A stretch of 64,000 nt of DNA from Roseomonas sp. (GTDB taxonomy: Bacteria > Pseudomonadota > Alphaproteobacteria > Acetobacterales > Acetobacteraceae): positions 1 through 64,000 of the forward strand of contig JADCFN010000037.1 in the NCBI GenBank assembly GCA_020249505.1. Direction: 5' to 3'. The position numbers and the translations under genes were made by a program. Positions 7,811 to 56,606 of the stretch are shown piece after piece. Each line of letters starts with the position of its first letter. Within the stretch, counting starts at the first letter, position 1. Below the pieces are notes generated by a model. It had not been told where the DNA came from. It saw only the letters and a list, made by a program, of their open reading frames with translations, and made no database searches.

Positions 7811-7839
7811 ACCAGGTTACGCGGAAAAGGATCACAATC

Positions 7840-8700
7840 ATGCAATTCGGTCGTTTGGGCGTTTGGTGTTCCACGGATCGGCTGGATGCGGCGGGTTTGC
7901 GCGCCTTGTTGAACCGCGTGGAAGATTTTGGCTATGGCAGCTTCTGGTATCCGGAATCACGTGGCTATGAATCCATGGCGCTGGCGGGGTTTCTGCTAGC
8001 GAATAGCAAGAAGCTGGTGGTCGGCAGCTCTATTGCGAATATTTATGGGCGGGATGCCTTCACCGCGCGCCGCGGCCTTGCCACGCTGAATGCGCTGCAC
8101 GGCGGGCGCTTCGCGCTTGGGCTTGGTGTCAGCCATATCCCGATGGTGGAAGGCTTGCGCGGCCATCGCTATGAAAAACCCATCCCGGCCATGCGCGGCT
8201 ATCTGGATGGGCTGCGCAAAGCGGGTGCTGATACGCTGGAAGGCCCGGTGTTGCTGGCGGCTCTTGGTCCGAAAATGTTGGCCCTTTCCGGCAGTGCAGC
8301 GGATGGTGCCGTGCCTTACAATGTGACACCGGAGCACACCGCGCAGGCCGCGGCTATTCTCGGCGCGGGCAAGGTGCTGGCGGTGGAACAGAAGGTCTGC
8401 ATTGAAACCGATCTGGCGCGCGCCCGCGCGCTCGGGCGGCGAGAGCTTGCCCGCTACATGGCGCTGCCGAATTACGTGAATAACTGGCTGCGGCTTGGTT
8501 TCAGCGAAGCGGAACTGGCCAATGGCGGCAGTGATCGTTTCATTGATGCTATGGTGCTGCATGGTGATGCCGCCAGCGTGAAGGCCGGACTGCGCGCGCA
8601 TTTCGCGGCGGGGGCAACGCATGTCTGCATCCAACCCGTCACGGATGATGGCGATACCGCGCATCGGGACGCCATGCTTGCCGCGCTGGCGGATACGTGA
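7840..8700 (+). CDS. LLM-class F420-dependent oxidoreductase (MSMEG_4141-like)
   Basis: A 286-residue luciferase-like TIM barrel of the type predicted to use reduced F420 rather than FMN. Characteristic pieces are [12 protein letters not shown] at the N-terminus, [15 protein letters not shown] (about 33-47), [17 protein letters not shown] and [11 protein letters not shown]. It begins the plus-strand run that continues without gaps into fgd, cofE, cofD and cofC, so it is probably part of the F420 operon. Its stop overlaps the start of the next gene (TGATG). The substrate is unknown; F420 use is inferred from subfamily and context. Confidence 0.85.
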
Positions 8701-9710
8701 TGGCCATGTTGAAGCTCGGCTATAAGGCATCCGCTGAACAATTCGCGCCGGCGCAATTGCTGGATTTCGGCGTGCTGGCCGAAGAGATGGGCTTCGATAG
8801 CTGCTTCATTTCAGACCACTTCCAGCCCTGGAAACACACGGGCGGCCATGCGCCGAATTCGCTGGTTTGGCTTGGCGCGCTTGGGGCGCGCACGCAGCGG
8901 CTTGTGATGGGCACCAGCGTGCTGACGCCAACCTTTCGCTATCATCCTTCGATTGTGGCGCAGGCTTTTGGTACGCTTGGTTCGATGTTTCCCGGTCGCG
9001 TCATTCTGGGCATCGGTACAGGTGAAGGCCTGAATGAGGTGCCTTCCACCGGTCAGCCCTGGCCGGAATTTAAGGAACGCTTCGCGCGTATGCGCGAAGC
9101 CGTGCAATTGATGCGCAAGCTTTGGACCGAAGATCGCGTGAGCTTTGAGGGGCAATATTACCGCACGGAACACGCCACCATTTATGATCGGCCCGAAACC
9201 CCTGTGCCGATTTATGTTGCGGCTGCCGGCGCCATGGTCGCGAAATATGCCGGGCGTGCCGGCGATGGCTTTATCTGCACCAGCGGCAAGAAGCCTGAGC
9301 TTTACACCGAAACGCTGCTGCCGAATGTAGTGGCGGGGCTGGAAGCAGCGGCGGCGCCGAAACCCGATTATGATCGCATGATTGAAGTGAAGGTTTCCTT
9401 CGATACGGACAAGCAGCGCGCCTTGGAAGATACGCGCCATTGGGCGGCGCTGGCGCTTTCCTCGGAAGAAAAAATGTCGGTGGAAGACCCGATGGAAATG
9501 GAACGGCTTGCCGATGCGCTGCCGCTTGAACGCGCGGCTAGCCGCTGGATTGTTTCCAATGATCCGGAAGAACATGTGGAGCGTATCGGCTATTACGTCG
9601 GCCTCGGCTTCCGGCATTTGGTGTTTCATGCGCCCGGGCCGGATCAGGCGCGGTTTTTGCGGCTGTATGGGGAGCAGGTGCTGCCACTGCTGCGCCGCCG
9701 CTTCGCTTGA
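8700..9710 (+). CDS. fgd: F420-dependent glucose-6-phosphate dehydrogenase homologue
   Basis: A 336-residue protein, the same length as mycobacterial FGD1 and alignable nearly end to end: [76 protein letters not shown]. Catalytic His40, Trp44 and Glu109 are all present. The three FGD1 phosphate ligands (Lys198, Lys259, Arg283) correspond to Lys197, Lys258 and Arg282, which argues for a sugar-phosphate substrate. The reaction would oxidise glucose 6-phosphate to the lactone and reduce F420. ATG 8700 gives the FGD1-like N-terminus; a GTG three bases upstream is an alternative. Confidence 0.93.
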
Positions 9711-10447
9711 AGCCGAGCCTTCAGCTTTTTGCGCTGCCTGGCCTGCCCATGGTGCGGGCGGGCGATGATCTTCCGCCGTTATTGGAAGACGCCATGACGC
9801 GCGCTGGCTTGATGCCAGAACCTGGCGATGTGCTGGCGGTTGCGCAGAAAATCGTGAGCAAGGCGGAAGGGCGAAGCATTGCGCTGGCGTCCGTTCAGCC
9901 ATCCCAAGCAGCGCGTGATTTGGCCGAGCAGACCGGCAAGGATGCGCGGTTGGTCGAGCTAATCCTTTGTGAATCGCAATACGTGGTGCGTGCGCGGCCC
10001 AACCTGATTATCGTGAAGCATCGGCTTGGTTTTGTGATGGCGAATGCAGGCATTGATCAATCCAATATCGGCGCTGATGGCCATGCGTTGCTTCTGCCGC
10101 GCGATCCTGACGGGAGTGCGGCAGCGCTTTCTGCGCGGCTTGGTCTGCCCGTGGTGATTACGGATAGTTTCGGCCGCGCCTGGCGACGCGGGACGGTGGG
10201 TGTTGCGATTGGCGCGGCGGGGTTGCCGGCACTGCGCGATTTGCGTGGCCAGCCCGATTTATTTGGCCGCACGCTGATGGTCAGCATCACCGGCTTCGCC
10301 GATGAAATCGCCGCCGCAGCAGGTTTGGTCATGGGGCAGGGTGCTGAGGGTCAGCCAGCCGTATTGTTGCGCGGTTTGTCCTGGTCTGGCGCCGTGAACC
10401 CCGCCGCCGAATTGCTCCGCCCCGCGCAGGAGGATCTATTCCAGTGA
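9707..10447 (+). CDS. cofE: Coenzyme F420-0:L-glutamate ligase CofE
   Basis: A 246-residue CofE-type enzyme that uses GTP to add L-glutamate residues to F420-0. Motifs include [13 protein letters not shown] at the start, [15 protein letters not shown], the [15 protein letters not shown] segment, [13 protein letters not shown] and [19 protein letters not shown]. It lacks the extra C-terminal nitroreductase-like domain of actinobacterial FbiB. The start is a TTG whose last two bases belong to the stop of fgd, and its end overlaps cofD by four bases (GTGA), so translation is coupled through the operon. Confidence 0.95.
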
Positions 10448-11364
10448 TCATCGCGCTGTCCGGTGGCATTGGCGGGGCGAAGTTGGCACTTGGCCTTTCG
10501 CGCATTTTGCCGCCGGAGGAGTTGCTGATCATCGCCAATACCGGCGATGATTTTGAACATTACGGGCTCACCATCTGCCCGGATACGGATACGCTACTCT
10601 ATACCCTGGCGGGGTTGGATAATCCCAAGCTTGGTTGGGGGCGGGTGGATGAAAGCTGGGCTTTCATGGAAACCCTCGCCACGCTTGGCGGGGCGGATTG
10701 GTTTCGCCTGGGTGATCGCGATCTGGCGTTGCATGTGCTGCGGAGCCATCGTCTCGCCGCCGGCGAAAGCCTCTCAGCCATTACGGATGATGTACGCCAG
10801 CGCTTCGGCATCGGCCCGCGCATCCTGCCGATGAGTGATGATCCGGTGCGCACGCAAATCAACACGGATCAAGGCTGGCTTGATTTTCAGGATTGGTTTG
10901 TGCGGCTGCGCGCTGAACCCTTGGCGCGCGCGGTGAACTTCGCTGGTGTTGAACAGGCGCGCCCGCAGCCCGTTTTGCTTGAAGCGCTGCGCGCAAAACC
11001 GCGCGGCATTGTGATTTGCCCAAGCAATCCCTTCATCAGCATCGAACCCATCCTGGCCGTGCCTGGTTTGCGTGATGCCATTGCCGCATCGGGCGCGCCG
11101 GTGGTGGCGGTATCGCCCATCATTGCCGGCCAGGCGGTGAAAGGACCAACCGCGCGCATGTTTGCAGCGCTTGGCATCCCTCCAAGTGCCGCCGCCGTTG
11201 CCGCGCGCTATGGCGATTTGCTGGATGGTTTCGTGATGGAACATGGCGATGATGATGCAGGCATCACGCCGCGCGTGTTCTATGCGGCGACGCTGATGCG
11301 CGATCTGGCGGACAAGATGGCCCTTGCGCGGCAGGTCTTGACGGCGATTGACTCGCTTAGATGA
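10444..11364 (+). CDS. cofD: 2-phospho-L-lactate transferase CofD (FbiA family)
   Basis: A 306-residue CofD. It transfers the phospholactyl, phosphoenolpyruvyl or equivalent group from the GDP-activated precursor onto the deazaflavin Fo, giving F420-0 or its dehydro form. The N-terminal SGGIGGAKLALGL loop, IIANTGDDFEHYGL, the CPDTDTLLY segment and ICPSNPFISIEPIL near 195-210 are family hallmarks. GTG start, overlapping cofE by four bases; the stop overlaps cofC by four bases. Confidence 0.96.
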   Translation: MIIALSGGIGGAKLALGLSRILPPEELLIIANTGDDFEHYGLTICPDTDTLLYTLAGLDNPKLGWGRVDESWAFMETLATLGGADWFRLGDRDLALHVLRSHRLAAGESLSAITDDVRQRFGIGPRILPMSDDPVRTQINTDQGWLDFQDWFVRLRAEPLARAVNFAGVEQARPQPVLLEALRAKPRGIVICPSNPFISIEPILAVPGLRDAIAASGAPVVAVSPIIAGQAVKGPTARMFAALGIPPSAAAVAARYGDLLDGFVMEHGDDDAGITPRVFYAATLMRDLADKMALARQVLTAIDSLR

Positions 11365-12020
11365 AGCCCTGGGCCATTTTGCCGGTGAAGGAGATGGTGG
11401 AGGCAAAGCAGCGCCTTGCGCCCTTGCTGTCCCCCGAAGAACGCTTGGCGCTGATGCAGATGATGTTGCGCGATGTGCTGACGGCACTATCGGCCGCGCA
11501 AGGTCTGGCAGGTATTGCGCTGGTGACGCTTGATCCTTGGGCGCAAGCACTGGCCGAGGCGCATGATGCGCGGATTATCACGGAAGGCGCACGGGAAGGG
11601 CATACCGGCGCGGTGACAGCGGCGGCATCGGTGTTACGGGCGGAGGGTATCGCCGCCATTCTGACGCTACCCGGCGATATTCCCGCGGTGAAAACGGCTG
11701 AGGTTGAGGCGCTGATTGCCGCAGCAAGCACCGCGCCCGCTTTCATCATCGCACCCGCGCATGATGAGCAGGGTTCGAACGCCATCCTGATGTCACCACC
11801 CGATGCGGTGCGGCTACGCTTTGGTGAGGATAGCTATTTCCCGCATCTGGCCGCAGCAGGCGCGGCGGGCATCACGCCGCAAATTCTACGCCTGCCGGGC
11901 ATTGCCATGGATATTGATCATCCCACTGATATCGCGCGCTTTGCACGCATTCCCGAAGCCGCGGACACGCAAACCCTGGCGTGGCTAGCGCAAAACGGTA
12001 TTCTCAGTCGCTTGGCTTAA
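11361..12020 (+). CDS. cofC: CofC-family guanylyltransferase (phospholactate/PEP/3-phosphoglycerate)
   Basis: A 219-residue nucleotidyltransferase of the MobA-like fold. It activates a three-carbon phosphate with GTP for use by CofD. Visible are ILPVKEMVEAKQRLAPLLSP at the N-terminus, ILTLPGDIPAVKTAEVEAL (metal-binding aspartate) around residue 95-110, GSNAILMSPP and the IDHPTDIARF tail. Which three-carbon acid it prefers cannot be read from the sequence. It ends the plus-strand operon; its last four bases overlap the end of the convergent fbiC. Confidence 0.93.
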   Translation: MKPWAILPVKEMVEAKQRLAPLLSPEERLALMQMMLRDVLTALSAAQGLAGIALVTLDPWAQALAEAHDARIITEGAREGHTGAVTAAASVLRAEGIAAILTLPGDIPAVKTAEVEALIAAASTAPAFIIAPAHDEQGSNAILMSPPDAVRLRFGEDSYFPHLAAAGAAGITPQILRLPGIAMDIDHPTDIARFARIPEAADTQTLAWLAQNGILSRLA

Positions 12021-14377
12021 TCCCCCGCCAATAACACACGCTTGCGCGGCGCGGTCTGCACCATGGGCAATAAAGGCTCGGCGCTGCGCGAAGCGTCTTC
12101 GCGTTCGCGCGTAACGGCGCCATAGATAGTGCTGCGCTGCATTGGCTGCCGCCCGGTGGAAAGGATCAGGCGTTCCATCGCCTCGGGCGGGAATTCCTGG
12201 CCGTGTTCAGTGCCGGCGGCGCGGCTGATACTCTCATTCATCAGCGTACCGCCCAAATCATTCGCCCCCGCTTGCAGGGCCACCGCCGCACCTTCTGGGC
12301 CCATCTTCACCCAGCTTGTCTGGATATTGGTGAAATGCGGATGGAGCACGAGCCGCGCAACGCTGTGCATCAACAGCGCCTCACGAAAGCTTGGCCCGCG
12401 GCGCGCCAGGCCGCGCAGATACATGGGCGCTTCCATATGCACGAAAGGCAGCGGCACGAATTCAGTGAAGCCGCCGGTTTCCGCTTGCAGATCGCGCAGC
12501 ACCAGCAAATGCCGCGCCCAATGCAAGGGCGCTTCCACATGGCCGAACATGATGGTCGCTGTACTGCGCAGGCCGAGCCCATGCGCAGCCCGCATCACGG
12601 CCTGCCATTCGGCTGTATTCACCTTATCCGCGCAGATGATGGCGCGCACCTCATCATCCAGAATCTCTGCTGCCGTACCGGGCAAAGTGCCAAGCCCGGC
12701 ATCGCGCAGCCGCGCCAGAAACGCAGAAAGCGAAAGCCCCAGCGTGCGCGCGCCCTGATGAATTTCAAGCGCCGAGAAGGCGTGGATATGCATACCCGGC
12801 ACGGCCTGCTTGATGGCGCGGCAAATCGCTTCATAGGTAGCGCCAGTATAATCCGGATGGATGCCGCCTTGCAGGCAGACTTCGGTCGCACCACGCGCCC
12901 AGGCTTCCTTGGCGCGGCGGGTGATTTCCGCGTGATCGAGATCATAGGCCGGGCCACGCAAGGCTTCATGAGTCTTGCCCTTGCTGAAGGCGCAGAAGCT
13001 GCAGCGATAGCTGCAGATATTGGTATAGTTGATGTTCCGATTGACGACATAGCGCACGGTATCGCCAGCAACCGCCTGGCGCAGCCGATCCGCAGCCGCC
13101 ATGATATGCGCCTGATCCGTATCCCGCGCGGCAAACAGCGTTTCAATTGCCGGCGCATCAAGCCTTTCGCCCTGCGCGGCGCGCTCCACCAACGCCGCCA
13201 GCCCTGCATCAGCCGCGTTCAATAGCGGCGCAGCAAGGCGCGGCAGAGTGAGCGCACCCGGAGACCAATCATCACCGCGCGCAAAGCCGGCTGCATCACT
13301 CGCACGCAGCAGCGCGGTTGCGATGCGCGGCGCAAACCATTCGCGCGGCGCACGCAGATAGGCGGGATAGGCCGGCAGGCGCTGCACCAGCACCTTGCCC
13401 ATGCTCGCGGTTTTCTCAGCCAATGTCGCAATCGCAGGCCAGGGCGCTTCAGGGTTCACATGATCCGGCGTCACCGGCGAAATGCCGCCCCAATCATTGA
13501 TGCCGGCCGCGATCAGGCGCGGATAGGTGCCAGGCGAAAGATTGGGTGGCGCTTGGATATTCGCCTGCGCGCCCAGAATGATGCGCGCGCAGGCAATGGT
13601 CCACAGTAGATCATCCAAATCGGGTTCATCCGCATCGGCGCGCTTGGTGCGGGGCTTGGCGCGGAAATTCTGAATGATGACTTCCTGCACATGCCCATAG
13701 CGGGCGTGGCTTTCGGATATGGCGCGCAAGGCTTCCAGACGTTCCGCGCGGGTTTCACCAATGCCGATCAGAATGCCGGTGGTGAAGGGAATCTGCGCCG
13801 CACCCGCTTCGTTCAATACCGCAAGCCTGATGGCCGGGTGCTTGTCGGGGCTGCCATGATGCACGCCGCCGGGCGCGCAAAGCCTTTCACTGGTACTTTC
13901 CAGCATGATGCCTTGGCTCGCGGTCACATCGCGCAACGCCAGCAGCTCTGCCCTATCCATGACGCCGGGATTGGCATGGGGCAGCAACCCGGTTTCACGT
14001 AGCACCAAATCACACATGGCCACCAGGTATTCGATGGTGCTTGCATGGCCCATTTCCGCCAAGGCGTCGCGCGCCTGGCGCCAGCGCAATTCGGGCTTAT
14101 CGCCAAGCGTAAACAGTGCTTCGGTGCAACCTGCCTTGGCGCCGGCGCGCGCAATTTCCAGCACTTCGTCGGGCGAAAGATACGCGGCCCGCCCCGCACG
14201 CGGCTTTTCGGCGAAGGTGCAATAATGGCAGACATCGCGGCAGAGCTTGGTCAGTGGGATGAAGACCTTGCGCGAATAGGACATGACGCGCCCATGGCCA
14301 GCATCGCGCAAAGCAGCCGCTTCTTCCATCAATTCCGCCAGTGGCGTTCGTTCCAGCCTGTCCTGCACCCTTGCCAT
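12017..14377 (-). CDS. fbiC: Bifunctional Fo synthase FbiC (CofG-CofH fusion)
   Basis: A 786-residue fusion of two radical-SAM halves that together build 7,8-didemethyl-8-hydroxy-5-deazariboflavin (Fo) from tyrosine and the flavin precursor 5-amino-6-ribitylaminouracil. The N-terminal CofG half has CRDVCHYCTFA (CxxxCxxC cluster site) near residue 45; the C-terminal CofH half has CSYRCSFCAFSKGK near 465. The ATG at 14377 sits directly against an AAGGAGG, too close for normal use; GTG at 14368 has nine-base spacing and may be the real start. It runs convergently to cofC and divergently from the next LLM gene, 70 bases away. Confidence 0.95.
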   Translation of the reverse strand: MARVQDRLERTPLAELMEEAAALRDAGHGRVMSYSRKVFIPLTKLCRDVCHYCTFAEKPRAGRAAYLSPDEVLEIARAGAKAGCTEALFTLGDKPELRWRQARDALAEMGHASTIEYLVAMCDLVLRETGLLPHANPGVMDRAELLALRDVTASQGIMLESTSERLCAPGGVHHGSPDKHPAIRLAVLNEAGAAQIPFTTGILIGIGETRAERLEALRAISESHARYGHVQEVIIQNFRAKPRTKRADADEPDLDDLLWTIACARIILGAQANIQAPPNLSPGTYPRLIAAGINDWGGISPVTPDHVNPEAPWPAIATLAEKTASMGKVLVQRLPAYPAYLRAPREWFAPRIATALLRASDAAGFARGDDWSPGALTLPRLAAPLLNAADAGLAALVERAAQGERLDAPAIETLFAARDTDQAHIMAAADRLRQAVAGDTVRYVVNRNINYTNICSYRCSFCAFSKGKTHEALRGPAYDLDHAEITRRAKEAWARGATEVCLQGGIHPDYTGATYEAICRAIKQAVPGMHIHAFSALEIHQGARTLGLSLSAFLARLRDAGLGTLPGTAAEILDDEVRAIICADKVNTAEWQAVMRAAHGLGLRSTATIMFGHVEAPLHWARHLLVLRDLQAETGGFTEFVPLPFVHMEAPMYLRGLARRGPSFREALLMHSVARLVLHPHFTNIQTSWVKMGPEGAAVALQAGANDLGGTLMNESISRAAGTEHGQEFPPEAMERLILSTGRQPMQRSTIYGAVTREREDASRSAEPLLPMVQTAPRKRVLLAGD

Positions 14378-14447
14378 CCTCCTTCCCCTGGCCCCATCGT
14401 GTGGGAAGGCCGCGCCAGATGCAATGCGCGGGGATGGGAGGCCCAAA

Positions 14448-15401
14448 ATGCAAATCGGTTTCAACGCCCCAACTGCCGGCCCGCTCGCCACGCCTGAGGC
14501 GATTACGCGGCTTCTCCAGGGCGGTGAGGCCATGGGCTATGCCTATGCCACCTTCAGCGACCATGTGGTGATCCCGACTGATATTCACGCCATCTACCCC
14601 TATTCGGATAATGGCGAATTTCCCGCCGGCGCGCGCGGTGGGCGGCATGAACAATTGACCGAGGTGATGTTCGCCGCCGCACGCACCAATACGCTGCGGC
14701 TTGTCACCTCCGTCATGGTGGTGCCGCATCGCCCGGCGGTGCTGACAGCGAAAATCCTGTCCACGATTGATATCTTTTCGAATGGTCGCCTTACGCTTGG
14801 CATCGGCGCGGGCTGGCTGAAGGAGGAATTCGAAGCACTCGACGCGCCAGATTTTGCCGCGCGTGGCAAGGTGACGGATGAATACATCCTGGCGGCGCGG
14901 GAATTATGGACGGCAGCCGATCCGCGCTTTCAGGGCGAGTATGTGAGCTTCGACAAGATCAGTTTTGAACCCAAGCCCGTGCAGCCAGGCGGCCCGCCGA
15001 TTTGGGTAGGGGGCGAAAGCGGCCCGGCGCTCAGGCGCACGGCGCGGTTGGGCGACGCCTGGTATCCCATCGGCACGAATCCGGCTTTCCCGCTGGATAG
15101 CCTGGCCCGCTACAAGGCAGCCGTTGCCAAGCTGCGCCGTTTGACCGCCGAGGCCGGGCGGGACCCTGCTGCGGTCGGGCTATCGCTCCGCGTGCAAAAA
15201 TTTGGTGCGGAATTGCCGGCCCTGGCCGGTGATGGGGAACGGCATTTGTTCTCAGGCAGTCCGGAGCAGATTGTGGAAGATATCCACGCGCTGCGCGCGC
15301 TGGGAGTCTCGGCGATTGATTTCAACTTCCTGGGTTCCACCGTTGAAAAAGTGCTGGGTCAGATGGAAAGCTTCCGCACTTCGGTGATGGCGAGGATCTG
15401 A
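14448..15401 (+). CDS. LLM-class F420-dependent oxidoreductase (TIGR03619-like)
   Basis: A 317-residue luciferase-like oxidoreductase. It has FNAPTAGPL, a FSDHVVIP metal-free active-site strand near residue 38, LVTSVMVVPHRPAVLTAK and GRLTLGIGAGW. These match the predicted F420-binding subfamilies rather than bacterial luciferase. GGGAGG lies six bases before the ATG; reading frames upstream of it run into fbiC antisense and are not used. It is divergent from fbiC and followed after three bases by another LLM gene. Substrate unknown. Confidence 0.87.
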   Translation: MQIGFNAPTAGPLATPEAITRLLQGGEAMGYAYATFSDHVVIPTDIHAIYPYSDNGEFPAGARGGRHEQLTEVMFAAARTNTLRLVTSVMVVPHRPAVLTAKILSTIDIFSNGRLTLGIGAGWLKEEFEALDAPDFAARGKVTDEYILAARELWTAADPRFQGEYVSFDKISFEPKPVQPGGPPIWVGGESGPALRRTARLGDAWYPIGTNPAFPLDSLARYKAAVAKLRRLTAEAGRDPAAVGLSLRVQKFGAELPALAGDGERHLFSGSPEQIVEDIHALRALGVSAIDFNFLGSTVEKVLGQMESFRTSVMARI

Positions 15402-15404
15402 CCC

Positions 15405-16433
15405 ATGCGCCTTGGCATGACGCTTGGCATGACCGGCACCGTTGATATGGCGCTGGTGCTGGAAGCCGAAAGGCTTGGCTTCACCATGGTGTGGTGCGGC
15501 GAAAGCTACGGGTCTGATGCCGTGACGCCGATCACCTGGGTGCTGGCACAAACCACAAAAATCAAGGCAGGCACAGGCATTATGCAAATGCCGGCGCGCA
15601 GCCCTGCTTGTGCGGCTTCCACGGCGATGACGCTGCAATCCCTTTCCGGGGATCGCTTCCTGTGCGGGGTAGGGCCTTCCGGGCCGCAGGTGGTGGAAGG
15701 CTGGCACGGGCAGGCATATGGCAGCCCGCTGGTGCGGACGCGTGAATATATTGACATCATGCGCGCCATCATCGCGCGCGAAAGGCCCTTGGAATATCAG
15801 GGCACGCATTATCGCATTCCCTATGACGGGCCGGACGCGACAGGGCTTGGCAAGCCGCTGAAGAGCATTCTGCATGGCAAGCCGATGCGCTTTTACTGCG
15901 CGTCCATCACGCCAGGTGGCATGCGGCTGGCGGGTGAAATCGCCGACGGCAATTTGCCGATTTTCATGTCGCCGGAAAAGGCTGACCTGGTGATAAAGCC
16001 AACGCTGGAAGGCATGGCGAAGGCCGCCACGCCACGCGCCTTAAGCGATTTTGATATCGCGCCCTATACGAAGATCAGGCTGGGCGATGATCTGCAAGCC
16101 TGTCGCGATGCGGTGAAGCCGGAATTGGCGCTTTACATCGGCGGCATGGGTGCTGTGGGCAAGAATTTCTACAATGATTACTGCAAGCGCCTTGGCTTTC
16201 CGGATGCGGCAGCGGCGATCCAAAAGGCATTTCTGGCCGGCCATCGCAAGGAAGCGATTGCCGCGGTGCCGGATGCGCTGGTGGATGAAATCGCGCTGGT
16301 TGGTCCCGCAGATCGCGTGCGCGCCCGCTTGCGCGATTGGCAGGCGGCGGCGCGTGAGGGCAAGCTGAATACGCTGGTGCTGACGGGTGCCACGCAAGAA
16401 GCACTGCGCTTGGCTGCGGAGACGGTGCTTTAG
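15405..16433 (+). CDS. LLM-class F420-dependent oxidoreductase (Rv3520c-like)
   Basis: A 342-residue member of the Rv3520c-like branch. Indicators are MVWCGESYGSDAVTP (about 29-43), PARSPACAASTAMTLQSLSG, CGVGPSGPQVVEGWHGQ and LVRTREYIDIMRAI, which carry the phosphate and isoalloxazine contacts of F420 LLM proteins. The C-terminus ends with a SAM-independent region DALVDEIALVGPADRVRARL typical of the group. It follows the previous LLM gene by three bases and is likely co-transcribed; it ends four bases into the convergent next gene. Confidence 0.87.
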   Translation: MRLGMTLGMTGTVDMALVLEAERLGFTMVWCGESYGSDAVTPITWVLAQTTKIKAGTGIMQMPARSPACAASTAMTLQSLSGDRFLCGVGPSGPQVVEGWHGQAYGSPLVRTREYIDIMRAIIARERPLEYQGTHYRIPYDGPDATGLGKPLKSILHGKPMRFYCASITPGGMRLAGEIADGNLPIFMSPEKADLVIKPTLEGMAKAATPRALSDFDIAPYTKIRLGDDLQACRDAVKPELALYIGGMGAVGKNFYNDYCKRLGFPDAAAAIQKAFLAGHRKEAIAAVPDALVDEIALVGPADRVRARLRDWQAAAREGKLNTLVLTGATQEALRLAAETVL

Positions 16434-17281
16434 CCGACGTCGCGGATCAGCGCGGCCCAGCGGTCTAATTCCGGCAAAATCTCATCACGCTTGGCGGAAG
16501 CAAGGCTCAGCACCACGCGCGCAACGCCAAGGTCTCGGTCCGCCAGTAGCGCGTCGCGGTCTTCCTTCACGCCCCAGATGGTGATGGGCAAATCTTCTTC
16601 GCGGCGCCCGGCTTCGGCCACCAATTGGCGGAATTGCGGAATCAGCGCACCCACATCGGCATAGTGCTTGCGCACACGATGCGGCATCCAGCCATCACCA
16701 TAGCGCACCGCGCGCTTCGCACCCCATGGAAAGGCGCCGCCAACGATGATCGGTGGATGTGGCTTTTGCAGCGGCTTCGGGCCGGTTTCCATCGGCGTGA
16801 AATTGACGAATTCGCCGGCATAGCTTGGCTGGGCTTCTGTCCAGATCGCCTTCATCGCCTCAATGCGTTCGCGGGCCAGCTTGTGACGCGAGGCGAAGAC
16901 GGTGCCGTGGTTTTCAATCTCATCCTGGTTCCAGCCATTGCCGACGCCGAACAGGAAGCGCCCGCAAGAGACTTGATCAATGGTCGCGACAGCCTTCGCG
17001 GTCTGGATCGGGTCGCGCTGCACCACCAGACAAATGCCAGTTCCCACCAGTAATGTCTTGGTAGCGGCTGCGGCGGCAGTCAGCGTCACGAAAGGGTCCA
17101 TCACCTCATAATACTCGCGCGGCAAGGCGCCGCCGCCCGGATAGGAAGCGGTGCGCGCCAGCGGAATATGGGAATGTTCCGGCGCCCAGAGGCTATCAAA
17201 ACCGCGCTCTTCCAAGGCCACGGCCAATTCGCCGGGCGTCATGGAATAATCGGTGAAGAACATGGCAGCGCCGATTTTCAT
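16430..17281 (-). CDS. LLM-class F420-dependent oxidoreductase (TIGR03619-like)
   Basis: A 283-residue luciferase-like oxidoreductase with SLWAPEHSHIPL near residue 30, VGTGICLVVQRDPIQTAKAVATIDQVSCGRFLFGVG in pieces through 80-115 and PPIIVGGAFPWGAKRA near 178. It is convergent with the preceding LLM gene and divergent from the deacetylase. With the LLM genes at 7840, 14448 and 15405 it makes four luciferase-like proteins besides Fgd around the F420 genes. F420 use is inferred, not proven. Confidence 0.86.
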   Translation of the reverse strand: MKIGAAMFFTDYSMTPGELAVALEERGFDSLWAPEHSHIPLARTASYPGGGALPREYYEVMDPFVTLTAAAAATKTLLVGTGICLVVQRDPIQTAKAVATIDQVSCGRFLFGVGNGWNQDEIENHGTVFASRHKLARERIEAMKAIWTEAQPSYAGEFVNFTPMETGPKPLQKPHPPIIVGGAFPWGAKRAVRYGDGWMPHRVRKHYADVGALIPQFRQLVAEAGRREEDLPITIWGVKEDRDALLADRDLGVARVVLSLASAKRDEILPELDRWAALIRDVG

Positions 17282-17399
17282 AAGATCCTTCCTCCCTGAT
17301 CAGATGGAAGGCTGGCCCGCTGCGGCGCGGCAGGCAAGCCCCGCACCCTTGCCGAAACTAATCCGCGCCCCCAAACAAGAACGCGAAAGGATCACCGCA

Positions 17400-18828: not shown

Positions 18829-19671
18829 TCAGCCCAATTCAAAACTGGTGATGCCGTAGATCTGCGCGAGCGGCAGCCCTGGTGCGGGCCCGGCATACAT
18901 GCGCGCGGTTTCAAAGGCGGGCGCCATGCCCGCATCCTGCGCTATCGCAATCGCTTCAGTATTCGGTTCAGGTATATCCAGAAAAACCGGACCAGCCGGC
19001 GCCTTGGCGAGCAGGGCTGCGAAAACCCTGCGTGCTGCTTCGGACGTTTCGGCGAAAAGCGGACCTATCTTCGAACCTTCACGGCAAGGGCGCAGTACAC
19101 CGAGCGCTTGCACACCCTCCGCATCCATAAGCGCAAGGGCGATATGCCCTGGCGCGGTCAGCCATTGGCGCAGAAATGCTTTTCGCTGCGCGGGAAAATA
19201 GCGGCGATCAAAGGCAGTAATTTGCGCGAAGTGCTGCGCAGTCACTTCCATGGGCTGAGGCCCCGGCTGTGGCGGCATGAACGGTGCCGCGGCGCCATAG
19301 CGGATATTCCGATGCAGCAAAGTGAAGCCGGATTTCCGATAATTCGCCTGCTGCGCCACCACGCCATCCAAGCCAATGACGCGGCCTTGCAGCCGTGCCA
19401 TGGCCACGCGCCACAAGGCCATGCCATAGCCCTTGCCGCGAAATTCAGGGCGCATGAGGTAGAAGCCGATAAAGCCAAAGGCAGCGCCGTAATCGGTCGC
19501 GGAAATGCAGCCAATCGGCACATCGTTCAAAACCGCCATAAGAAAGGCGCCTGGGTCCGCAGCGTGGAAGCAGGCGGCATCAGCAAGGCCAGGGTTCCAG
19601 CCCTCAGCGGCGGCCCAATCCAGCGCCAAGCCTATTTCGCCCTGCGTCATGCTGCGGATGGAAAGGCTCAT
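18829..19671 (-). CDS. GNAT-family N-acetyltransferase (two-domain)
   Basis: A 280-residue acetyltransferase. The N-terminal GNAT domain carries the acetyl-CoA loop RPEFRGKGYGMALW near residue 80 and the following IGLDGVVAQQANYRKSGF, which is typical of the branch with an appended YitH/HolE-type C-terminal domain. The C-terminal half ends with an EPNTEAIAIAQDAGM segment. The ATG at 19671 overlaps the stop of the upstream hotdog gene (ATGA). The acceptor is unknown. Confidence 0.85.
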   Translation of the reverse strand: MSLSIRSMTQGEIGLALDWAAAEGWNPGLADAACFHAADPGAFLMAVLNDVPIGCISATDYGAAFGFIGFYLMRPEFRGKGYGMALWRVAMARLQGRVIGLDGVVAQQANYRKSGFTLLHRNIRYGAAAPFMPPQPGPQPMEVTAQHFAQITAFDRRYFPAQRKAFLRQWLTAPGHIALALMDAEGVQALGVLRPCREGSKIGPLFAETSEAARRVFAALLAKAPAGPVFLDIPEPNTEAIAIAQDAGMAPAFETARMYAGPAPGLPLAQIYGITSFELG

Positions 19672-20468
19672 CCCCCGGCCTCCGCCACCTGACGCGGGCG
19701 CCAAATCGCGTCATGAGTCACGCGCGCCACGGGGCGTGCGCCATTCGCCAGCACCAGCGCATCAATCGTGACAATCCGGTGCCCCTTGCGGTCACTATTG
19801 GCGATGATGCGCCCGCGCGCGGTCATGCTTTCACCCAGCCGCGCTTCGCTATGAAAGCGCAACTTGCTGCCAATGTGAATCCAAGGCCCCAACACGACAT
19901 TTTGCGTGAGCAGCCAATTGCACATGCGAAGCACCAACCCAGGATGGGCAAGGCCCTGTTCCGCATAAAGCGGTGTGGTTTCACGCACATCGCGCAGATA
20001 ATCCGCCAGCACTTGCGGCGTCAGGTCCAGCACGCGCGCGCCAAGCCAAAGCCCAGGTGCCAGGCTTTCATCACTCGCCTTGGGGCGCGTGTCGGGCGGT
20101 GATGCCGCTGGCCAATCGGCCAGGGAAACGGCTTCCGGCGGCGTTTCCGGCACGCGCGCACAACCACTGGCGCAGGCAACACCTTCGCTTTCCACCGCTA
20201 GCGCCAGACCATCGGCTTCGGGCGTGGCCGTTACGGTCGCGATGCGCCCATCATAAACCGGCTTTTGGAAACCCGCTGCAATCTCTCCCGCACGCAGAAA
20301 ATCGCGCCCCCATTTTTCTACCGCCGGGTGGCAGCAATAAGCGAATACTTCCACCCCCGGCACCAGCCCGCCAGTGAAGCCAAAGCGCTGCGCCGTCGCA
20401 TCATCATGAATGCGATTTTCGGAAGCGTGAGAGAGGTTATAGGCCTCAACCCGATAGGTCATGGTCAT
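19668..20468 (-). CDS. Hotdog-fold (MaoC-like) hypothetical protein
   Basis: A 266-residue protein with the layout of a double hotdog. The N-terminal part has FGFTGGLVPGVEVFAY, reminiscent of the MaoC hydratase entry motif but without a clear catalytic Asp/His pair. The C-terminal part has GSKLRFHSEARLGESMTARGRI, typical of thioesterase/dehydratase strands. I start it at ATG 20468, eight bases after AGGA; ATGs at 20477 and 20462 are alternatives. It is coupled to the GNAT gene by a 4-base overlap. Function unknown; acyl-CoA or acyl-ester chemistry is possible. Confidence 0.68.
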   Translation of the reverse strand: MTMTYRVEAYNLSHASENRIHDDATAQRFGFTGGLVPGVEVFAYCCHPAVEKWGRDFLRAGEIAAGFQKPVYDGRIATVTATPEADGLALAVESEGVACASGCARVPETPPEAVSLADWPAASPPDTRPKASDESLAPGLWLGARVLDLTPQVLADYLRDVRETTPLYAEQGLAHPGLVLRMCNWLLTQNVVLGPWIHIGSKLRFHSEARLGESMTARGRIIANSDRKGHRIVTIDALVLANGARPVARVTHDAIWRPRQVAEAGG

Positions 20469-20508
20469 GACGTTCATCCTAAGGCGTGCTTTGCGGGTGG
20501 GCCACCCC

Positions 20509-21567
20509 TCAACAACTCGAAGGCGGCTGCGGCGCTGTGGCAAAACGCAAAAGACAGGCGCCGTAACGATCATTGAAGGGCGTACTGGCGCCCGCGCTAT
20601 GGCCGGTCATGCCCTCCGGCCGGTCAATCAGCAAAAACCCACCGAAGCGTTCACGTTGCCGCCGCAGCGCCTCGGCACGCTTGTCGGGTTCCGCCATGAA
20701 GGGATCATCGCGAAAATCCGCAATGGCAAGCCTTGTGCGGCGTGCATTGGCGGCCCCAGCCAACAACGCCTCCAATTCCGCGATTTGCGCATGCAGGCGG
20801 TTGTTGTCCTCACTCGGGCGGCCATGCGCGGCGGCGGCAATCGCAATCGCCACATCGGCAAGGCCTGCGCGGTTCAGCACCATCAGCGCATTCCAACCGC
20901 CGCGCGATTGCCCCGCCACAATCACCTGCCGATAGCCGCGCCCGCGCAGCTCCGCCAAATCATCGCGCAACCAGGCGGCCGCGCGGCGCGCGCTATCGGC
21001 ATTGGGTTCCCGGTCAAAACGCCAGACATCGAAGCCGGCATTGTTGAAATGCCGCGTCCAGCTTTGCGGCTGGCGCCCGCGTAAGTCGGTTACCGCTTCC
21101 TTCCCATGACCAAACACCAGCACGCCGCGCGCCTGTTCCGGCCCCCACCAAATGAAACGCTCATCCGGCAGCGTCGTGTGATGGGCAGAGGTGATGGCCA
21201 CCCCCTCGGGTGGCGGGCTCGGCGCCCATTCTCGCCCCGGCTTCACAATCGCAAGATCGCGCAGCGCGATGGTACAAGCGCCAGCGCCGGCGCGCCTTTC
21301 GCAATTGCTCAGCGCGGTTTGCTCAACAAAGGCCGCGTCGCCTCCGCCCGCCTGCCAGCCGAAGGCGCCATTCGGCCCAAAGGCCAGCACCCGCGGCGTA
21401 TTCAGGTTCAGAAAGCGACGGACACTCGCATGGCTGGTATCGGGCAACCCCAGAATGGCCGGCGCTTCCAGAATGGGCACCGCAGGCGCCTGGGCGTGGC
21501 TGAGCGGCGCCAGGACCAGCCCAAGCAGCCCCGCAACCGCCGCGATAAGGCCCTTCCAGGCTGCCAT
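20509..21567 (-). CDS. Secreted alpha/beta-hydrolase-like protein
   Basis: A 352-residue protein with a signal peptide (LLGLVLAPLSHAQA, cleavage near residue 26). The fold signature is GVLVFGHGKEAVTDL for the oxyanion strand, VIVAGQSRGGWNAL for the nucleophile elbow (GQSRG) and a terminal GHSAGASTPFNDRYGACLL that may give the catalytic histidine. GGGGAG eight bases upstream supports the ATG at 21567. It is divergent from argG. Likely periplasmic serine hydrolase of unknown substrate. Confidence 0.75.
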   Translation of the reverse strand: MAAWKGLIAAVAGLLGLVLAPLSHAQAPAVPILEAPAILGLPDTSHASVRRFLNLNTPRVLAFGPNGAFGWQAGGGDAAFVEQTALSNCERRAGAGACTIALRDLAIVKPGREWAPSPPPEGVAITSAHHTTLPDERFIWWGPEQARGVLVFGHGKEAVTDLRGRQPQSWTRHFNNAGFDVWRFDREPNADSARRAAAWLRDDLAELRGRGYRQVIVAGQSRGGWNALMVLNRAGLADVAIAIAAAAHGRPSEDNNRLHAQIAELEALLAGAANARRTRLAIADFRDDPFMAEPDKRAEALRRQRERFGGFLLIDRPEGMTGHSAGASTPFNDRYGACLLRFATAPQPPSSC

Positions 21568-33416: not shown

Positions 33417-35072
33417 CTACTTCACAATCGCGACACGCAACGCATTGGTCGTCCCCGGCGTGCCAAAGGGCACCCCGGCCGTCACCACCACCTCATCCCC
33501 GCTTTTGGCGAAGCCTTCATGCTGCGCGGCGCGGGTCGCGCGTGCCACCATTTCCGTCATGGAATGGATTTCATTCACCTCCAGCGGATGCACGCCCCAG
33601 ATCAGCGCCATGCGTCGCGCGACACCCGCGCTGGTGGTCAGCCCCAGGATCGGGCAATGCGGCCTTTCGCGCGCGACCCGCAACGTGGTGGACCCGGTGG
33701 AACTGAAGGTCGCAATCACCTCCGCCTCGATTGTCTCGGCCACCTGGCGCGCGGCGGTGGCGATGGCGCCGGCGCTGGAATGTTCGGGCGGCGGGCGCGC
33801 GGCATCGGTCAGGCGGCGCCAGTCTGTGTCTTGTTCCACGCGTGCCACAATGCGGTCCATCATATTCACCGCTTCATAGGGGTATTGCCCGGCGGCGGTC
33901 TCAGCCGAAAGCATGACCGCATCCGCACCATCAAATACCGCCGTGCCAACATCGGAAACCTCGGCGCGCGTTGGGCTTGGTGCGGTGATCATGCTTTCCA
34001 GCATTTGGGTTGCCACCACAACCGGTTTGCCGAGGGCGCGGGCGGCGCGCACGATGCGTTTTTGCGCGAGCGGCACTTCTTCCGGCGGCAGTTCCACGCC
34101 CAAATCACCGCGCGCGACCATGACGCAATCGGTCAGCGCCATGATGGCGTCCAGATTTTCGAGCGCCTGGGGTTTTTCCATTTTCACCATGATCCAGGCG
34201 CGCCCGGCGGCGATTTCCTTGGCCTCCGCCACATCCTCCGGGCGCTGCACAAAAGAAAGGCCGATATACTCCACGCCCTGGTCCAGCACGAAGGCAAGGT
34301 CCGCGCGGTCCTTTTCCGTCAGCGCCGGGATGGGCAGGGCCACATCGGGCACATTCACGCCTTTGCGGTCAGATAGCGGGCCGCCCACCACCACCTGGGT
34401 TTCCAGATGATCGGGGCGCTTGTGCGTGACACGCAGCCGGAGCTTGCCATCATCCAATAGAAGCGTGGTGCCGATTTGCGCTGCGGCGATGATTTCTGGA
34501 TGCGGCAGATTGACGCGCCTCGCGTCGCCAGGGGTGGGGTTCAGATCAAGCTTGAAGCTCTGGCCTGATTGCAGCTGCACCCGCCCGGCTTGGAAGCGCC
34601 CGACGCGAAGCTTCGGCCCCTGCACATCGGCGAGAATGCCGATGGGGCGGCCCACCTTGGCCTCCACGGCGCGGATGGTGGCGATGCGGGCGGCGTGATC
34701 CTCATGGCTGCCATGGGAAAAATTAAGCCGGAAGATATCGGCGCCGGCGCGGTGGAGCTTTTCGATCATCTCAGCGCTGCTGCTGGCGGGGCCCAGCGTT
34801 GCGATGATTTTGGTGCGGCGCCGGCGGCGCAGAACGGGGCGGGCCACCATGCGGGGCGCTCCTATCATTGGTTCAGAATGGGGTGGGGTGGGCGCCAAAT
34901 CGGGCCGCAGGCTTTCCGGTGGTAAGTTCAACGCCTTGGCGATGTCCGGAACACGATCCTCCGGAATACGCTTCCATTGGGAGACGGCGGCGGTGGAAAT
35001 GCCCAAGGCGGCGGCGATCTGCTTGACCGTGCCACGACGGGCGAGAAGAGCTTCAAGATTTGGGTCGCGCAT
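33417..35072 (-). CDS. pyk: Pyruvate kinase with N-terminal helix-turn-helix (YdaS/Cro-like) domain
   Basis: A 551-residue open frame. Residues about 10-58 read as a YdaS/Cro-like DNA-binding fold (VKQIAAALGISTAAVSQWKR, then RVPDIAKALNLPPESLRPDL). From about residue 82 it is a full pyruvate kinase: RRTKIIATLGPAS, FRLNFSHGSHEDH, VKMEKPQALENLD, ARGDLGVELPPEEVP and TQMLESM. It converts phosphoenolpyruvate and ADP to pyruvate and ATP. An internal ATG at 34850 follows AGGAG (34859-34863) by eight bases and would give a conventional kinase of about 477 residues. It is downstream of glycerate kinase, behind a 20-bp palindrome, and lacks the usual PK start directly at RRTK. Confidence 0.9.
   Translation of the reverse strand: MRDPNLEALLARRGTVKQIAAALGISTAAVSQWKRIPEDRVPDIAKALNLPPESLRPDLAPTPPHSEPMIGAPRMVARPVLRRRRRTKIIATLGPASSSAEMIEKLHRAGADIFRLNFSHGSHEDHAARIATIRAVEAKVGRPIGILADVQGPKLRVGRFQAGRVQLQSGQSFKLDLNPTPGDARRVNLPHPEIIAAAQIGTTLLLDDGKLRLRVTHKRPDHLETQVVVGGPLSDRKGVNVPDVALPIPALTEKDRADLAFVLDQGVEYIGLSFVQRPEDVAEAKEIAAGRAWIMVKMEKPQALENLDAIMALTDCVMVARGDLGVELPPEEVPLAQKRIVRAARALGKPVVVATQMLESMITAPSPTRAEVSDVGTAVFDGADAVMLSAETAAGQYPYEAVNMMDRIVARVEQDTDWRRLTDAARPPPEHSSAGAIATAARQVAETIEAEVIATFSSTGSTTLRVARERPHCPILGLTTSAGVARRMALIWGVHPLEVNEIHSMTEMVARATRAAQHEGFAKSGDEVVVTAGVPFGTPGTTNALRVAIVK
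34859..34863 (-). promoter_or_regulatory. Internal ribosome binding site before a second pyruvate kinase start
   Basis: On the minus strand AGGAG is followed after eight bases by the in-frame ATG at 34850, where the canonical pyruvate kinase begins. It could allow a second, shorter product without the helix-turn-helix domain. Inferred only from spacing. Confidence 0.45.
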
Positions 35073-54524: not shown

Positions 54525-55424
54525 TCAAAAGAAATGGGGATTGGACCAGGCGCGCTTGCCCGCCGCATCCGCCACCACAATACGCGCAAAGCCGCCATCG
54601 CGCAGCTTCGCAAGCGGTAGCACCGCCCTGGTCTGCAAGGGCGCCACGGATTGCGCGGCGCTCGATCCACGCCCCAGCACCATGATGCTGGCAGCGGGGC
54701 TGCAATGTATTTCAACCTGATCGTCACCCCAGATCACACCATCAATCCGCGGGCCTTGGCTGGCGTAAAAATGCCCTGCCTTGAGCGCGGCCAGCAGTGC
54801 TTCCGGTTCATTCTCCGCAGCCTTCACCATCACCCAGCCGCCGAACCAATCCTCGCAGGCGAAATGCGCGTCATCCACGGCAATCAGGGACACGCGCCGA
54901 CCATCCGTTAGCAGCCGATCCGCAAGGAAAGCTCCGCCACCGCGATCGGTACGCACCTGGCTGGTGTGGTTGTAGATCTCAACAGCGTGCGCGGCCGCGA
55001 TGCTATGCCCGTCCGCCGCTGTCAGCCCGTACCAGCCGGGATGCGCGATGGCTACGAAGGCGCCGGCATCGGCACAACGCGCAGCCAGCGCCGCGCCATT
55101 TTCCTCAGGCGGGGTTGGCGCGAAATCGAGCGGCAGGCCAACCGCCAGGATATGCCAAATCTCCCCGAGAGCGGTTGCCGGCGCATGAACCTCAGCACCC
55201 AGCAGGGTGGTGAAGCCAGACGCGCGAAAGCGACGCGTATCGGCGATGGGGAAATTGTAGCGCGCCATGAAATGGTCTGTCAGCGCCATGAAGTCATAGC
55301 CGCCGCGGCGATAGGTCTCCACCACATCCTCCGGCGTGCGCTTGCCGTCAGAAAGGGTGGAATGGGTATGGATATTGCCCTTCAGGAAGCGCCCCGGCGC
55401 CGCAAAGACGGGATCAAGCTGCAT
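54525..55424 (-). CDS. PHP-domain metal-dependent phosphoesterase-like protein
   Basis: A 299-residue PHP protein. Metal motifs in order: GNIHTHSTLSDG (about 16-27), MALTDHF (about 46), GAEVHAPATALGEIWH (about 76-91), FVAIAHPGWYGL (about 125) and IAVDDAHFACED (about 187). Related to CehA-like and YciV-like hydrolases; substrate unknown (phosphoester or other ester). The C-terminal 70 residues form a beta-rich appendage. GGAGG seven bases upstream. Confidence 0.87.
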   Translation of the reverse strand: MQLDPVFAAPGRFLKGNIHTHSTLSDGKRTPEDVVETYRRGGYDFMALTDHFMARYNFPIADTRRFRASGFTTLLGAEVHAPATALGEIWHILAVGLPLDFAPTPPEENGAALAARCADAGAFVAIAHPGWYGLTAADGHSIAAAHAVEIYNHTSQVRTDRGGGAFLADRLLTDGRRVSLIAVDDAHFACEDWFGGWVMVKAAENEPEALLAALKAGHFYASQGPRIDGVIWGDDQVEIHCSPAASIMVLGRGSSAAQSVAPLQTRAVLPLAKLRDGGFARIVVADAAGKRAWSNPHFF

Positions 55425-55570
55425 CGGGGGGCCTCCGCACCAGTGGGTTTTCTTCCTGGCCTTCCTAAAGCCTAAATCCCGGTCGTGGAATTGCGGCGGC
55501 GGCTTGGGGGCAGGACATCTCCCTCGCGGTCAGTCCGGGGCAGGAAATTTCGCCGAATAATCGCCAGAGG

Positions 55571-55589
55571 AAAAGAAAATCTTTCTTTT
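55571..55589 (+). promoter_or_regulatory. A/T inverted repeat upstream of the ATP-grasp gene
   Basis: AAAAGAAA-ATC... pairs with TTTCTTTT as an 8-bp inverted repeat with a three-base spacer, 60 bases before the start at 55650, in an unusually A+T-rich patch of leader. It might be an operator or an mRNA hairpin; no regulator is known. Confidence 0.35.
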
Positions 55590-55649
55590 TTAGGCCCTTG
55601 CATTGGCTTCTGGGCAGGCTTTTTTCTTGTGAAACTTTGGAGAAGCCGC

Positions 55650-56606
55650 ATGTCGAAGGTCTTTGTCATTCACGAAAATGATGCCTGGGTGGAACCGCTA
55701 CGCGCGGCCTTCGCCCGGATTGGGACGCCCTTTGAGGAATGGTTCCTGGATGAAGGCGTGCTTGACTTGACCACGCCGCCGCCCGAGGGCGTTTTCTATA
55801 ATCGCATGAGTGCGTCATCGCATACGCGCGGTCATACCTATGCGCCGGAATATGCCGGCGCGGTGATCGAACATTTGGAACGCCATGGCAGGCCGGTGGT
55901 GAATGGTCGGCGTGCCTTGCAATTGGAAGTCTCCAAGGTTGCGCAATATGCGGCGCTGGCCGGTTTCGATATTCCAACGCCGCCGACGATTGCCGTGGTG
56001 GGCACGCAGCATTTGGAAGCGGCGGCGGAAAAGCTCGGCTTTCCGGTGATCCTGAAGCATAACCGCGCCGGCAAGGGCTTGGGCGTGCAGTTGATTCTGA
56101 GCAAGGCGGCATTGCGTGAAGCAGTCGCGAAAATCACCGCCGACCCCGATCCCTTCGCCGCGCCGCGCGATGGGGTGTGGCTGGTGCAGCGCTACATCGA
56201 AGCGCCGGAGCCCTTCATCACGCGGGCCGAATTCATCAATGGCAAATTCCTCTATGCCGTGCGCGTGGATACGTCTGAAGGGTTTGAGCTTTGCCCGGCG
56301 GATGTCTGCGCCATTGAACCCGGCGCGGTATGCCCCGCCGTGGCGCCGGGGGAGAAGTTCCGCATCATTGAAGGTTTCACCCACCCCTTGCTGGCGCGCA
56401 TGGAAGCGTTTTTACGCGCCAATGGCGTTGGCGTCGGCGCGATTGAATTCATCACGGATCGTGCGGGTAACACTTTCGCCTATGACGTGAACACCAATAC
56501 CAATTACAACAGCGATGCCGAAGCCCGCGCCGGGCAATCAGGCATGGGCACCATTGCGCAATTCCTGACGGGTTTGCTGCAACAACAACAAGCCAAGGCA
56601 GCCTGA
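55650..56606 (+). CDS. ATP-grasp ligase-like protein
   Basis: A 318-residue ATP-grasp enzyme. The ATP-binding lysine-rich strand is GFPVILKHNRAGKGLGVQLI (about 128-147), the hinge DGVWLVQRYIEAPEP and the catalytic metal site EFITDRAGNTFAYDVNTNTNYN near 275-295. These enzymes couple a carboxylate to an amine or thiol using ATP. RimK/D-Ala-D-Ala-like by length, but no partner gene hints at the product. TTGGAGAAG precedes ATG 55650; a long upstream in-frame extension is not credible. Confidence 0.85.
   Translation: MSKVFVIHENDAWVEPLRAAFARIGTPFEEWFLDEGVLDLTTPPPEGVFYNRMSASSHTRGHTYAPEYAGAVIEHLERHGRPVVNGRRALQLEVSKVAQYAALAGFDIPTPPTIAVVGTQHLEAAAEKLGFPVILKHNRAGKGLGVQLILSKAALREAVAKITADPDPFAAPRDGVWLVQRYIEAPEPFITRAEFINGKFLYAVRVDTSEGFELCPADVCAIEPGAVCPAVAPGEKFRIIEGFTHPLLARMEAFLRANGVGVGAIEFITDRAGNTFAYDVNTNTNYNSDAEARAGQSGMGTIAQFLTGLLQQQQAKAA

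Follow-up and report, generated by a model that had tools for sequence, protein, structure and literature searches.

A chromosomal locus predicted to make, charge, and spend coenzyme F420 in a Roseomonadaceae-like lake bacterium

Results

A Compact Locus for F420 Synthesis, Reduction, and Use

We analyzed a 64,000-nucleotide stretch of a Roseomonas sp. assembly (GCA_020249505.1, contig JADCFN010000037.1, positions 1 to 64,000; hereafter, the window), in which a preliminary description made from the letters alone had drawn attention to a block of genes for the deazaflavin cofactor F420 at positions 7,840 to 17,281. This block is, with good probability, a resident chromosomal locus that makes, charges, and spends F420; we infer F420 production and all enzyme activities from sequence. 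As we picture it, FbiC would convert tyrosine and a ribityl-uracil precursor to FO, CofC would activate a three-carbon phospho-acid (2-phospholactate [2-PL] or phosphoenolpyruvate [PEP], not 3-phosphoglycerate [3-PG]) with GTP, CofD would join the activated phospho-acid to FO, and CofE would add glutamates; if PEP is used, the resulting dehydro-F420 would be reduced by a further enzyme. Fgd would charge F420 with hydride from glucose-6-phosphate (G6P), the 6-phosphogluconolactone formed would become 6-phosphogluconate spontaneously or by an unrecognized lactonase before passing to Gnd, and F420H2 would be spent by four neighboring LLM-family enzymes.

Ten open reading frames (ORFs), those of the block and its left neighbor, were scanned against NCBIfam and Pfam, and scores are given as bits over curated cut-offs. 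The + strand operon opens with LLM_4141, an LLM-class oxidoreductase gene (7840..8700; TIGR03620, 283.4/219.8), and continues with fgd (8697..9710; TIGR03554, 494.8/420; phmmer, 467.6 bits to R. jostii FGD1, 5lxe); cofE, for a single-domain F420-0:glutamate ligase of 246 residues (9707..10447; TIGR01916, 257.1/180.65); cofD, whose product would transfer the phospho-acid unit to FO (10444..11364; TIGR01819, 302.6/257.45; structures 3c3d and 6uvx matched); and cofC, for a guanylyltransferase of the 2-PL/PEP type by its diagnostic residue (11361..12020; TIGR03552, 135.8/105). Converging on them from the − strand is fbiC, for an FO synthase that fuses CofG and CofH (12017..14377; PRK09234, 1121.2/1018, scored on the 838-residue frame 12020–14533). 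Beyond it lie three more genes for LLM-class oxidoreductases: LLM_2161a of the TIGR03619 family (14448..15401, + strand; 224.2/166.9, scored on the frame from 14283), the Mer-like LLM_3520 of the TIGR03559 (Rv3520c) family (15405..16433, + strand; 351.5/335), and LLM_2161b, also of TIGR03619 (16430..17281, − strand; 256.9/166.9). CofC, CofD, CofE, FO synthase (FbiC), and Fgd alike pass curated cut-offs, cofE falling below that of PRK13293 (231.9/274), and each of the non-Fgd LLM genes, which total four and so amend the first count, exceeds the cut-off of one TIGR "F420" LLM subfamily. CofE has no nitroreductase domain and aligns with solved CofE structures over nearly its full length, and both FbiC halves carry the radical-SAM CxxxCxxC motif (CRDVCHYC and CSYRCSFC).

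The arrangement was as initially described: cofE, cofD, and cofC overlap in one operon with fgd and an LLM gene, fbiC faces them, and synthesis, reduction, and use are all linked within the block. In the longest frames, the four junctions of the + operon are 4-base overlaps (GTGA, TTGA, GTGA, and ATGA), and the converging ends of cofC and fbiC overlap by 4 bases as well; with the alternative fgd start, the ATG at 8700 in place of 8697, the overlap with the LLM gene would be 1 base. A Shine-Dalgarno-like GGAAGGAGG precedes the ATG at 14377 of fbiC, which is probably the start of this gene in place of its longest-frame start at 14533. For the LLM gene opposite, 14448 is the probable start, so that the two would diverge across 70 bp (14378..14447), an intergenic region defined by these two predicted starts. 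Gene order is constant in the genus loci that reach that far, and the block proteins are 74–99% identical, so the arrangement is not one of chance; LLM_4141 likewise keeps its position wherever a genus locus reaches it. In G029, the last LLM gene (L037:15624–16470) appears as two separate tblastn pieces, perhaps a broken or gapped copy.

The host genome (G000) measures 4.06 Mb, is 99.3% complete, and carries the window on contig C31. Among the matches listed, the closest named loci come from freshwater metagenome-assembled genomes (MAGs) labeled Roseomonas sp. (the first with 94% identity in CofD), followed by Dankookia, Paracraurococcus, and Belnapia. By this sequence evidence the host is a Roseomonadaceae-like lake alphaproteobacterium, which bears out the lineage first proposed.

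The Block Is Present or Absent as a Unit within the Genus

Of 35 genus members, 17 proved to have cofD, the host among them. With the block itself as DNA query and five candidate places scored per genome, it was recovered, either entire or split over contigs, in 18 of the 35 and was absent from 17, the 18th carrier being G009, whose fbiC and LLM genes lie at the edge of a contig, the locus being cut by an assembly gap. Since the block is present or absent as a whole and, within the genus, occurs only in carriers, the four LLM genes, all of which fall inside it, travel with the F420 genes. Carrier genomes measure 2.6–4.2 Mb, and the 17 without the locus measure 4.2–6.4 Mb, G013 excepted (3.2 Mb). 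An rpoB tree of 19 genus members (among which G009 is labeled negative) and 4 outgroup rows places seven carriers together with G013 (99, starred), apart from 11 noncarriers (81, not starred); for this tree and for the CofD and Fgd trees below, the support values are SH-aLRT only.

G013 offers a natural absence of the block. The neighboring gene pdaA was found, with at least 78% identity, in 19 of 20 genus members searched; the remaining one, G018 (85% complete), gave none. In G013, pdaA comes immediately after a PEP-mutase-like gene, and blastn of the G013 contig aligns its positions 5956 and 6000 with window positions 7811 and 17374, so that 9,562 bases (7812..17373) are gone as one block. 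This stretch, which defines the unit, has borders near those drawn at the outset. The block DNA search, over its five candidate places, found no island DNA elsewhere in G013 (89% complete). An rpoB DNA tree groups G013 with G000, G015, G008, and G009 (91/91, not starred), and in a tree of flank DNA its partner is the carrier G002 (89/97, not starred); the two differ on its position, and because both keep it among carriers, loss of the unit is the simplest reading of the empty site. It may instead be an assembly error in this MAG.

Fgd as the Recognized Route of G6P Oxidation

All 77 Fgd rows (not deduplicated) carry the residues aligned with E13, H40, W44, E109, T195, K198, K259, and R283, and among these residues we take Glu13, His40, Trp44, Glu109, and Thr195 to be active-site residues of Fgd. 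Lys198, Lys259, and Arg283 make up the G6P phosphate pocket, according to the accessible text of PMC5352752. The distant TIGR03557-type proteins of Thermomicrobium and Sphingobium are without Lys198. Judged by family searches, Fgd is the only recognized G6P dehydrogenase and F420 reductase in the host genome, since neither zwf nor fno was found. None of the 35 genus members, carriers or not, gave a zwf match in a search whose control was positive in 9 of 14 genomes, Caulobacter among them; G6P dehydrogenases of other kinds, the haloarchaeal short-chain type for example, were not searched for. An fno encoded elsewhere in the genome was rejected, as no match appeared at E ≤ 1e-3; in a search of 20 genus members, 5 had weak matches far below the cut-off. 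Downstream of Fgd, each of eight genus genomes examined, of which four are carriers and four are noncarriers, has gnd; in the host, it is followed by gntK, a gluconokinase gene, so that 6-phosphogluconate could be obtained from gluconate too.

Completion of the Side Chain

The initial view that all enzymes from FO to F420 are encoded stood for CofC, CofD, CofE, and FbiC, all over their cut-offs, but not for the reductase of the PEP route, which was recognized neither in the genome nor in 99 loci. In that route, dehydro-F420-0 is reduced by FbiB-C or FbiE, as set out in the parts of PMC8498797 and PMC6450877 available to us; the latter, in the same parts, likewise leaves the reductase gap open for archaea. 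With no reductase recognized, the locus would follow another route or rely on a novel enzyme. A locus that makes 3PG-F420, as in Mycetohabitans, would need no dehydro-F420 reductase, and the best PDB match of CofC is indeed the 3-PG enzyme 7p97 (73.1 bits versus 59.3 for FbiD). However, a Ser or Thr is the diagnostic residue of 3-PG CofC in the sections of PMC8764529 at hand, and in 94 of 94 CofC rows (not deduplicated, the window included) Gly stands where 3-PG enzymes have Ser (S162 of Mrhiz-CofC), the three metal-binding Asp being conserved. The Gly rules against this route: 3PG-F420 is an unlikely product, and we regard such a locus here as highly improbable. The same sections report that CofC assays do not distinguish 2-PL from PEP as natural substrate (PMC8764529). 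Residues 81–83 of CofC (window 11601–11609) read His-Thr-Gly and align with the region of FbiD Leu92 and Mrhiz Met91; the His is found in 62 of 65 fgd-type rows and 0 of 8 fno-type rows (not deduplicated), and since the motif tracks fgd-type loci and clade alike, we draw no function from it.

Alternatively, the side chain could derive from PEP and its double bond be reduced by an unlinked, broad-specificity nitroreductase. The host genome encodes four proteins of the PF00881 nitroreductase fold, two of them weakly FbiB-C-like in a single-protein scan (22.4 and 22.6 bits). Yet all four are encoded away from the locus, one exceeds the cut-off for malonic semialdehyde reductase (307.8/152), and two match an NADPH nitroreductase below its cut-off; moreover, the noncarrier G004 also has four PF00881 matches, which led us to reject an FbiE among the four. 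By comparison, a Thermomicrobium roseum nitroreductase near cofC, which we take as FbiE, scores far higher with the FbiB-C model (163.4 bits, under the cut-off of 249.55), the best other cofD carrier reaches 26.5 bits (G041), and genomes without cofD reach up to 57.5 bits. As bait, the T. roseum protein found no relative in the 99 nonplasmid loci and picked up Nonomuraea and Nocardia genes at 39–41%. An unlinked nitroreductase is therefore conceivable but doubtful. As a third route, a coinherited LLM protein may do the work with F420H2, the best candidate being the LLM gene divergent from fbiC; alternatively, CofC may take a saturated substrate by way of its altered His-Thr-Gly pocket motif. 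That G6P would be oxidized in this zwf-less lineage only via F420, and that the side chain would also be finished by such a third, nonnitroreductase route, is as a joint proposal an unlikely one; if true, the oxidative pentose phosphate branch would be deazaflavin-linked and not NADP-linked.

Evidence Weighing against the Proposed Role of the Locus

Several results weigh against our reading of the locus. The FbiB-C model TIGR03553 had no match at E ≤ 1e-3 in the host genome and passed its cut-off in 0 of 59 genomes. In 17 of the 35 genus members, neither the locus nor zwf was found, so that the genus can do without the Fgd route. In the eight genus genomes tested, no Pgl match was found, and Edd matches reached 31–38% at most, which we take to be IlvD-type dehydratases; Eda-like matches occurred only in the noncarriers G003, G004, and G010, and on these grounds an Entner-Doudoroff route was rejected. 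As for the enzymes that would spend F420H2, LLM proteins are also able to use flavin mononucleotide (FMN). The best solved match of LLM_2161a is an FMNH2-dependent monooxygenase, and LLM_2161b matches FMN and F420 enzymes alike, while LLM_3520 and LLM_4141 are closest in the PDB to structures of methylene-tetrahydromethanopterin reductase (Mer). Elsewhere in the genome, six PNPOx-like proteins were considered as F420-dependent split-barrel enzymes and rejected, none passing an F420-type cut-off (Ddn-type PF04075 was not searched for). Finally, only traces of F420 are reported for two other Alphaproteobacteria in the consulted portion of PMC8498797.

Phylogeny Argues for Residence

The compact linkage had also suggested a transferable module. 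One could suppose that the block was recently acquired as one piece from Actinobacteria or Chloroflexota and is still mobile. The order fgd-cofE-cofD-cofC recurs amid different neighbors in Dankookia and Crenalkalicoccus, the empty site in G013 is clean, and Fgd shares 56.8–61.9% identity with the Rhodococcus and Nocardia records, 17 in number, that top the plasmid list, a closer match than that of CofD, which reaches no more than 46.2% against plasmid-borne actinobacterial CofD. F420 clusters, mostly with npdG, also sit on plasmids of six other proteobacterial genera, namely Sinorhizobium, Leisingera, Paracoccus, Novosphingobium, Paraburkholderia, and Agrobacterium (L234, L235, L237, L239, L240, and L244), the Novosphingobium cluster being flanked by transposase and recombinase genes. 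In the Fgd tree (68 of 79 rows), the alphaproteobacterial row L127 branches outside the actinobacterial rows (80), which makes either direction of transfer possible; the three actinobacterial rows, however, form one clade of their own (100, starred).

The CofD tree speaks against recent arrival. It holds 92 of 112 rows, 20 having been dropped (near-duplicates, genus copies, and one short locus), and those of its deep branches that hold plasmid rows are long and uncertain. Here the window groups with Roseomonas sp. MAGs, then with Dankookia and Paracraurococcus, and then with Belnapia and Siccirubricoccus (100, 99, and 98, starred). The block resembles its flanks in guanine-cytosine (GC) content (61.8% versus 60.3% and 62.8%), and G013 falls among carriers, which reads as loss; the window holds no tRNA, no direct repeat pairs the two block borders, and no transposase or integrase was found among the 30 window ORFs scanned outside the block. 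A recent mobile island was rejected on these signs, and we hold the acquisition scenario to be quite improbable. Hence, of the transferable module, the recent transfer was not borne out (by GC, CofD grouping, tRNA, or border repeats), whereas its modularity has support from the order kept amid new neighbors, the absence of the unit from G013, a CofD set of mixed orders, and the plasmid clusters; the phylogenies place CofD among Roseomonadaceae relatives, while Fgd leaves the direction of transfer either way. The mixed-order set is a starred one of 33 rows, in which CofD of Crenalkalicoccus, Caldovatus, and Roseomonas acroporae, apart from the window clade, falls with Bradyrhizobium, Reyranella, and Vineibacter. 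Since rows of these last three share the set with Roseomonadaceae, old CofD transfers between orders are likely.

fgd-Type Loci across Alphaproteobacteria

A scan of species genomes with the CofD alignment gave at least 507 confirmed relatives, not all alphaproteobacterial, of which 80 loci were kept; with 19 from whole genomes and 13 plasmid loci, these make 112. Removal of 6 same-contig duplicates and all 13 plasmid loci left 93 for counting. The loci are stretches and the counts cover the genes within them; many of the 93 come from one genus, so that the counts are not independent events. The slot directly upstream of cofE holds fgd in 67, npdG/fno in 8 (L134, L135, L137, L138, L140, L142, L144, and L023), fbiC in 4, another gene in 7, and a contig end in 6, with cofE not recognized in 1. 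None of the 93 stretches has both fgd (at 65% or more) and fno (the fno bait scores 211.9/149.8 with TIGR01915); the two are alternatives in these stretches, L121 having fno near cofE but outside the counted slot. In the CofD tree, 57 fgd rows lie inside one 64-row set free of fno rows (SH-aLRT 91, not starred), a split that would fit a single Fno-for-Fgd exchange. Next to fbiC, the divergent LLM gene keeps its place in 29 of 34 loci with fbiC opposite to cofD (2 of the other 5 stop where a contig does); of 25 loci with fbiC and cofD on one strand, none has it there. Four loci (L143, L066, L073, and L095) stem from MAGs named Klebsiella pneumoniae or Asaia bogorensis that carry proteobacterial F420 loci; the names are probably wrong.

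These numbers do not sustain the rarity first ascribed to proteobacterial F420, and Fgd in alphaproteobacterial F420 producers already features in the part of the review PMC8498797 that we consulted. The fgd-type F420 loci of Alphaproteobacteria are a known kind, of which this locus is one member. Judged by titles, our searches of the open literature turned up no paper on the Roseomonas, Acetobacteraceae, or Reyranella case, an earlier mention being possible in the Ney et al. 2017 survey or the Thermomicrobium paper.

Elsewhere in the window, the N-terminal stretch of a pyruvate kinase frame (33417–35072) lies just over the P22 Cro family cut-off (31.9/30.2), and beside this frame, 35138–36520 matches glycerate 2-kinase models below their cut-offs. 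Among the 30 ORFs scanned, those at 19668–20573, 54525–55424, 55485–56606, and 59697–60572 (291–373 residues) had no Pfam match at 1e-5.

Discussion

What F420 does physiologically beyond Actinobacteria and archaea has hardly been tested. With 18 carriers and 17 noncarriers, one natural absence of the block, and zwf found in none of 35 members, this genus provides a ready comparison for the purpose of F420, and the compactness of the cluster makes its four LLM genes linked candidates for the reductase, beside any unlinked ones.

Other alphaproteobacterial fgd loci (Bradyrhizobium, Reyranella, and Acetobacterales) have the same fgd-cofE-cofD-cofC order, and many of them also share the converging fbiC with its divergent LLM neighbor. 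The present locus differs in that LLM_4141 and fgd overlap and LLM_3520 comes straight after LLM_2161a, whereas Bradyrhizobium L086 has other sequence between. The absence of zwf noted here holds for this genus, and that of fno for this genome. The npdG/fno loci of Azospirillum, Leisingera, Paracoccus, and a Sinorhizobium plasmid share the clustered genes for CofC, CofD, CofE, and FO synthase and, like fgd loci, have no FbiE-like gene in their stretches. They carry an NADPH:F420 reductase and no Fgd in the stretch, some lie on plasmids, and cofG and cofH are split in Leisingera and Paracoccus, in contrast to the FbiC fusion here.

The mycobacterial/Rhodococcus system (FbiA-D and Fgd1) has the FbiC fusion and the G6P pocket residues of Fgd in common with this locus, but mycobacterial FbiB carries a reductase domain, while CofE here stands alone; and mycobacteria have both Fgd and Zwf, by the available part of PMC8498797, against Fgd without Zwf here. 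In T. roseum, cofD is followed directly by cofC, as here, but an FbiB-C-like nitroreductase gene lies near cofC, unlike here, and a search of its plasmid gave only a TIGR03557-type Fgd relative (39.9%). The 3PG-F420 system of Mycetohabitans, finally, has a homologous CofC, which bears Ser at the 3-PG residue where the enzyme described here has Gly.

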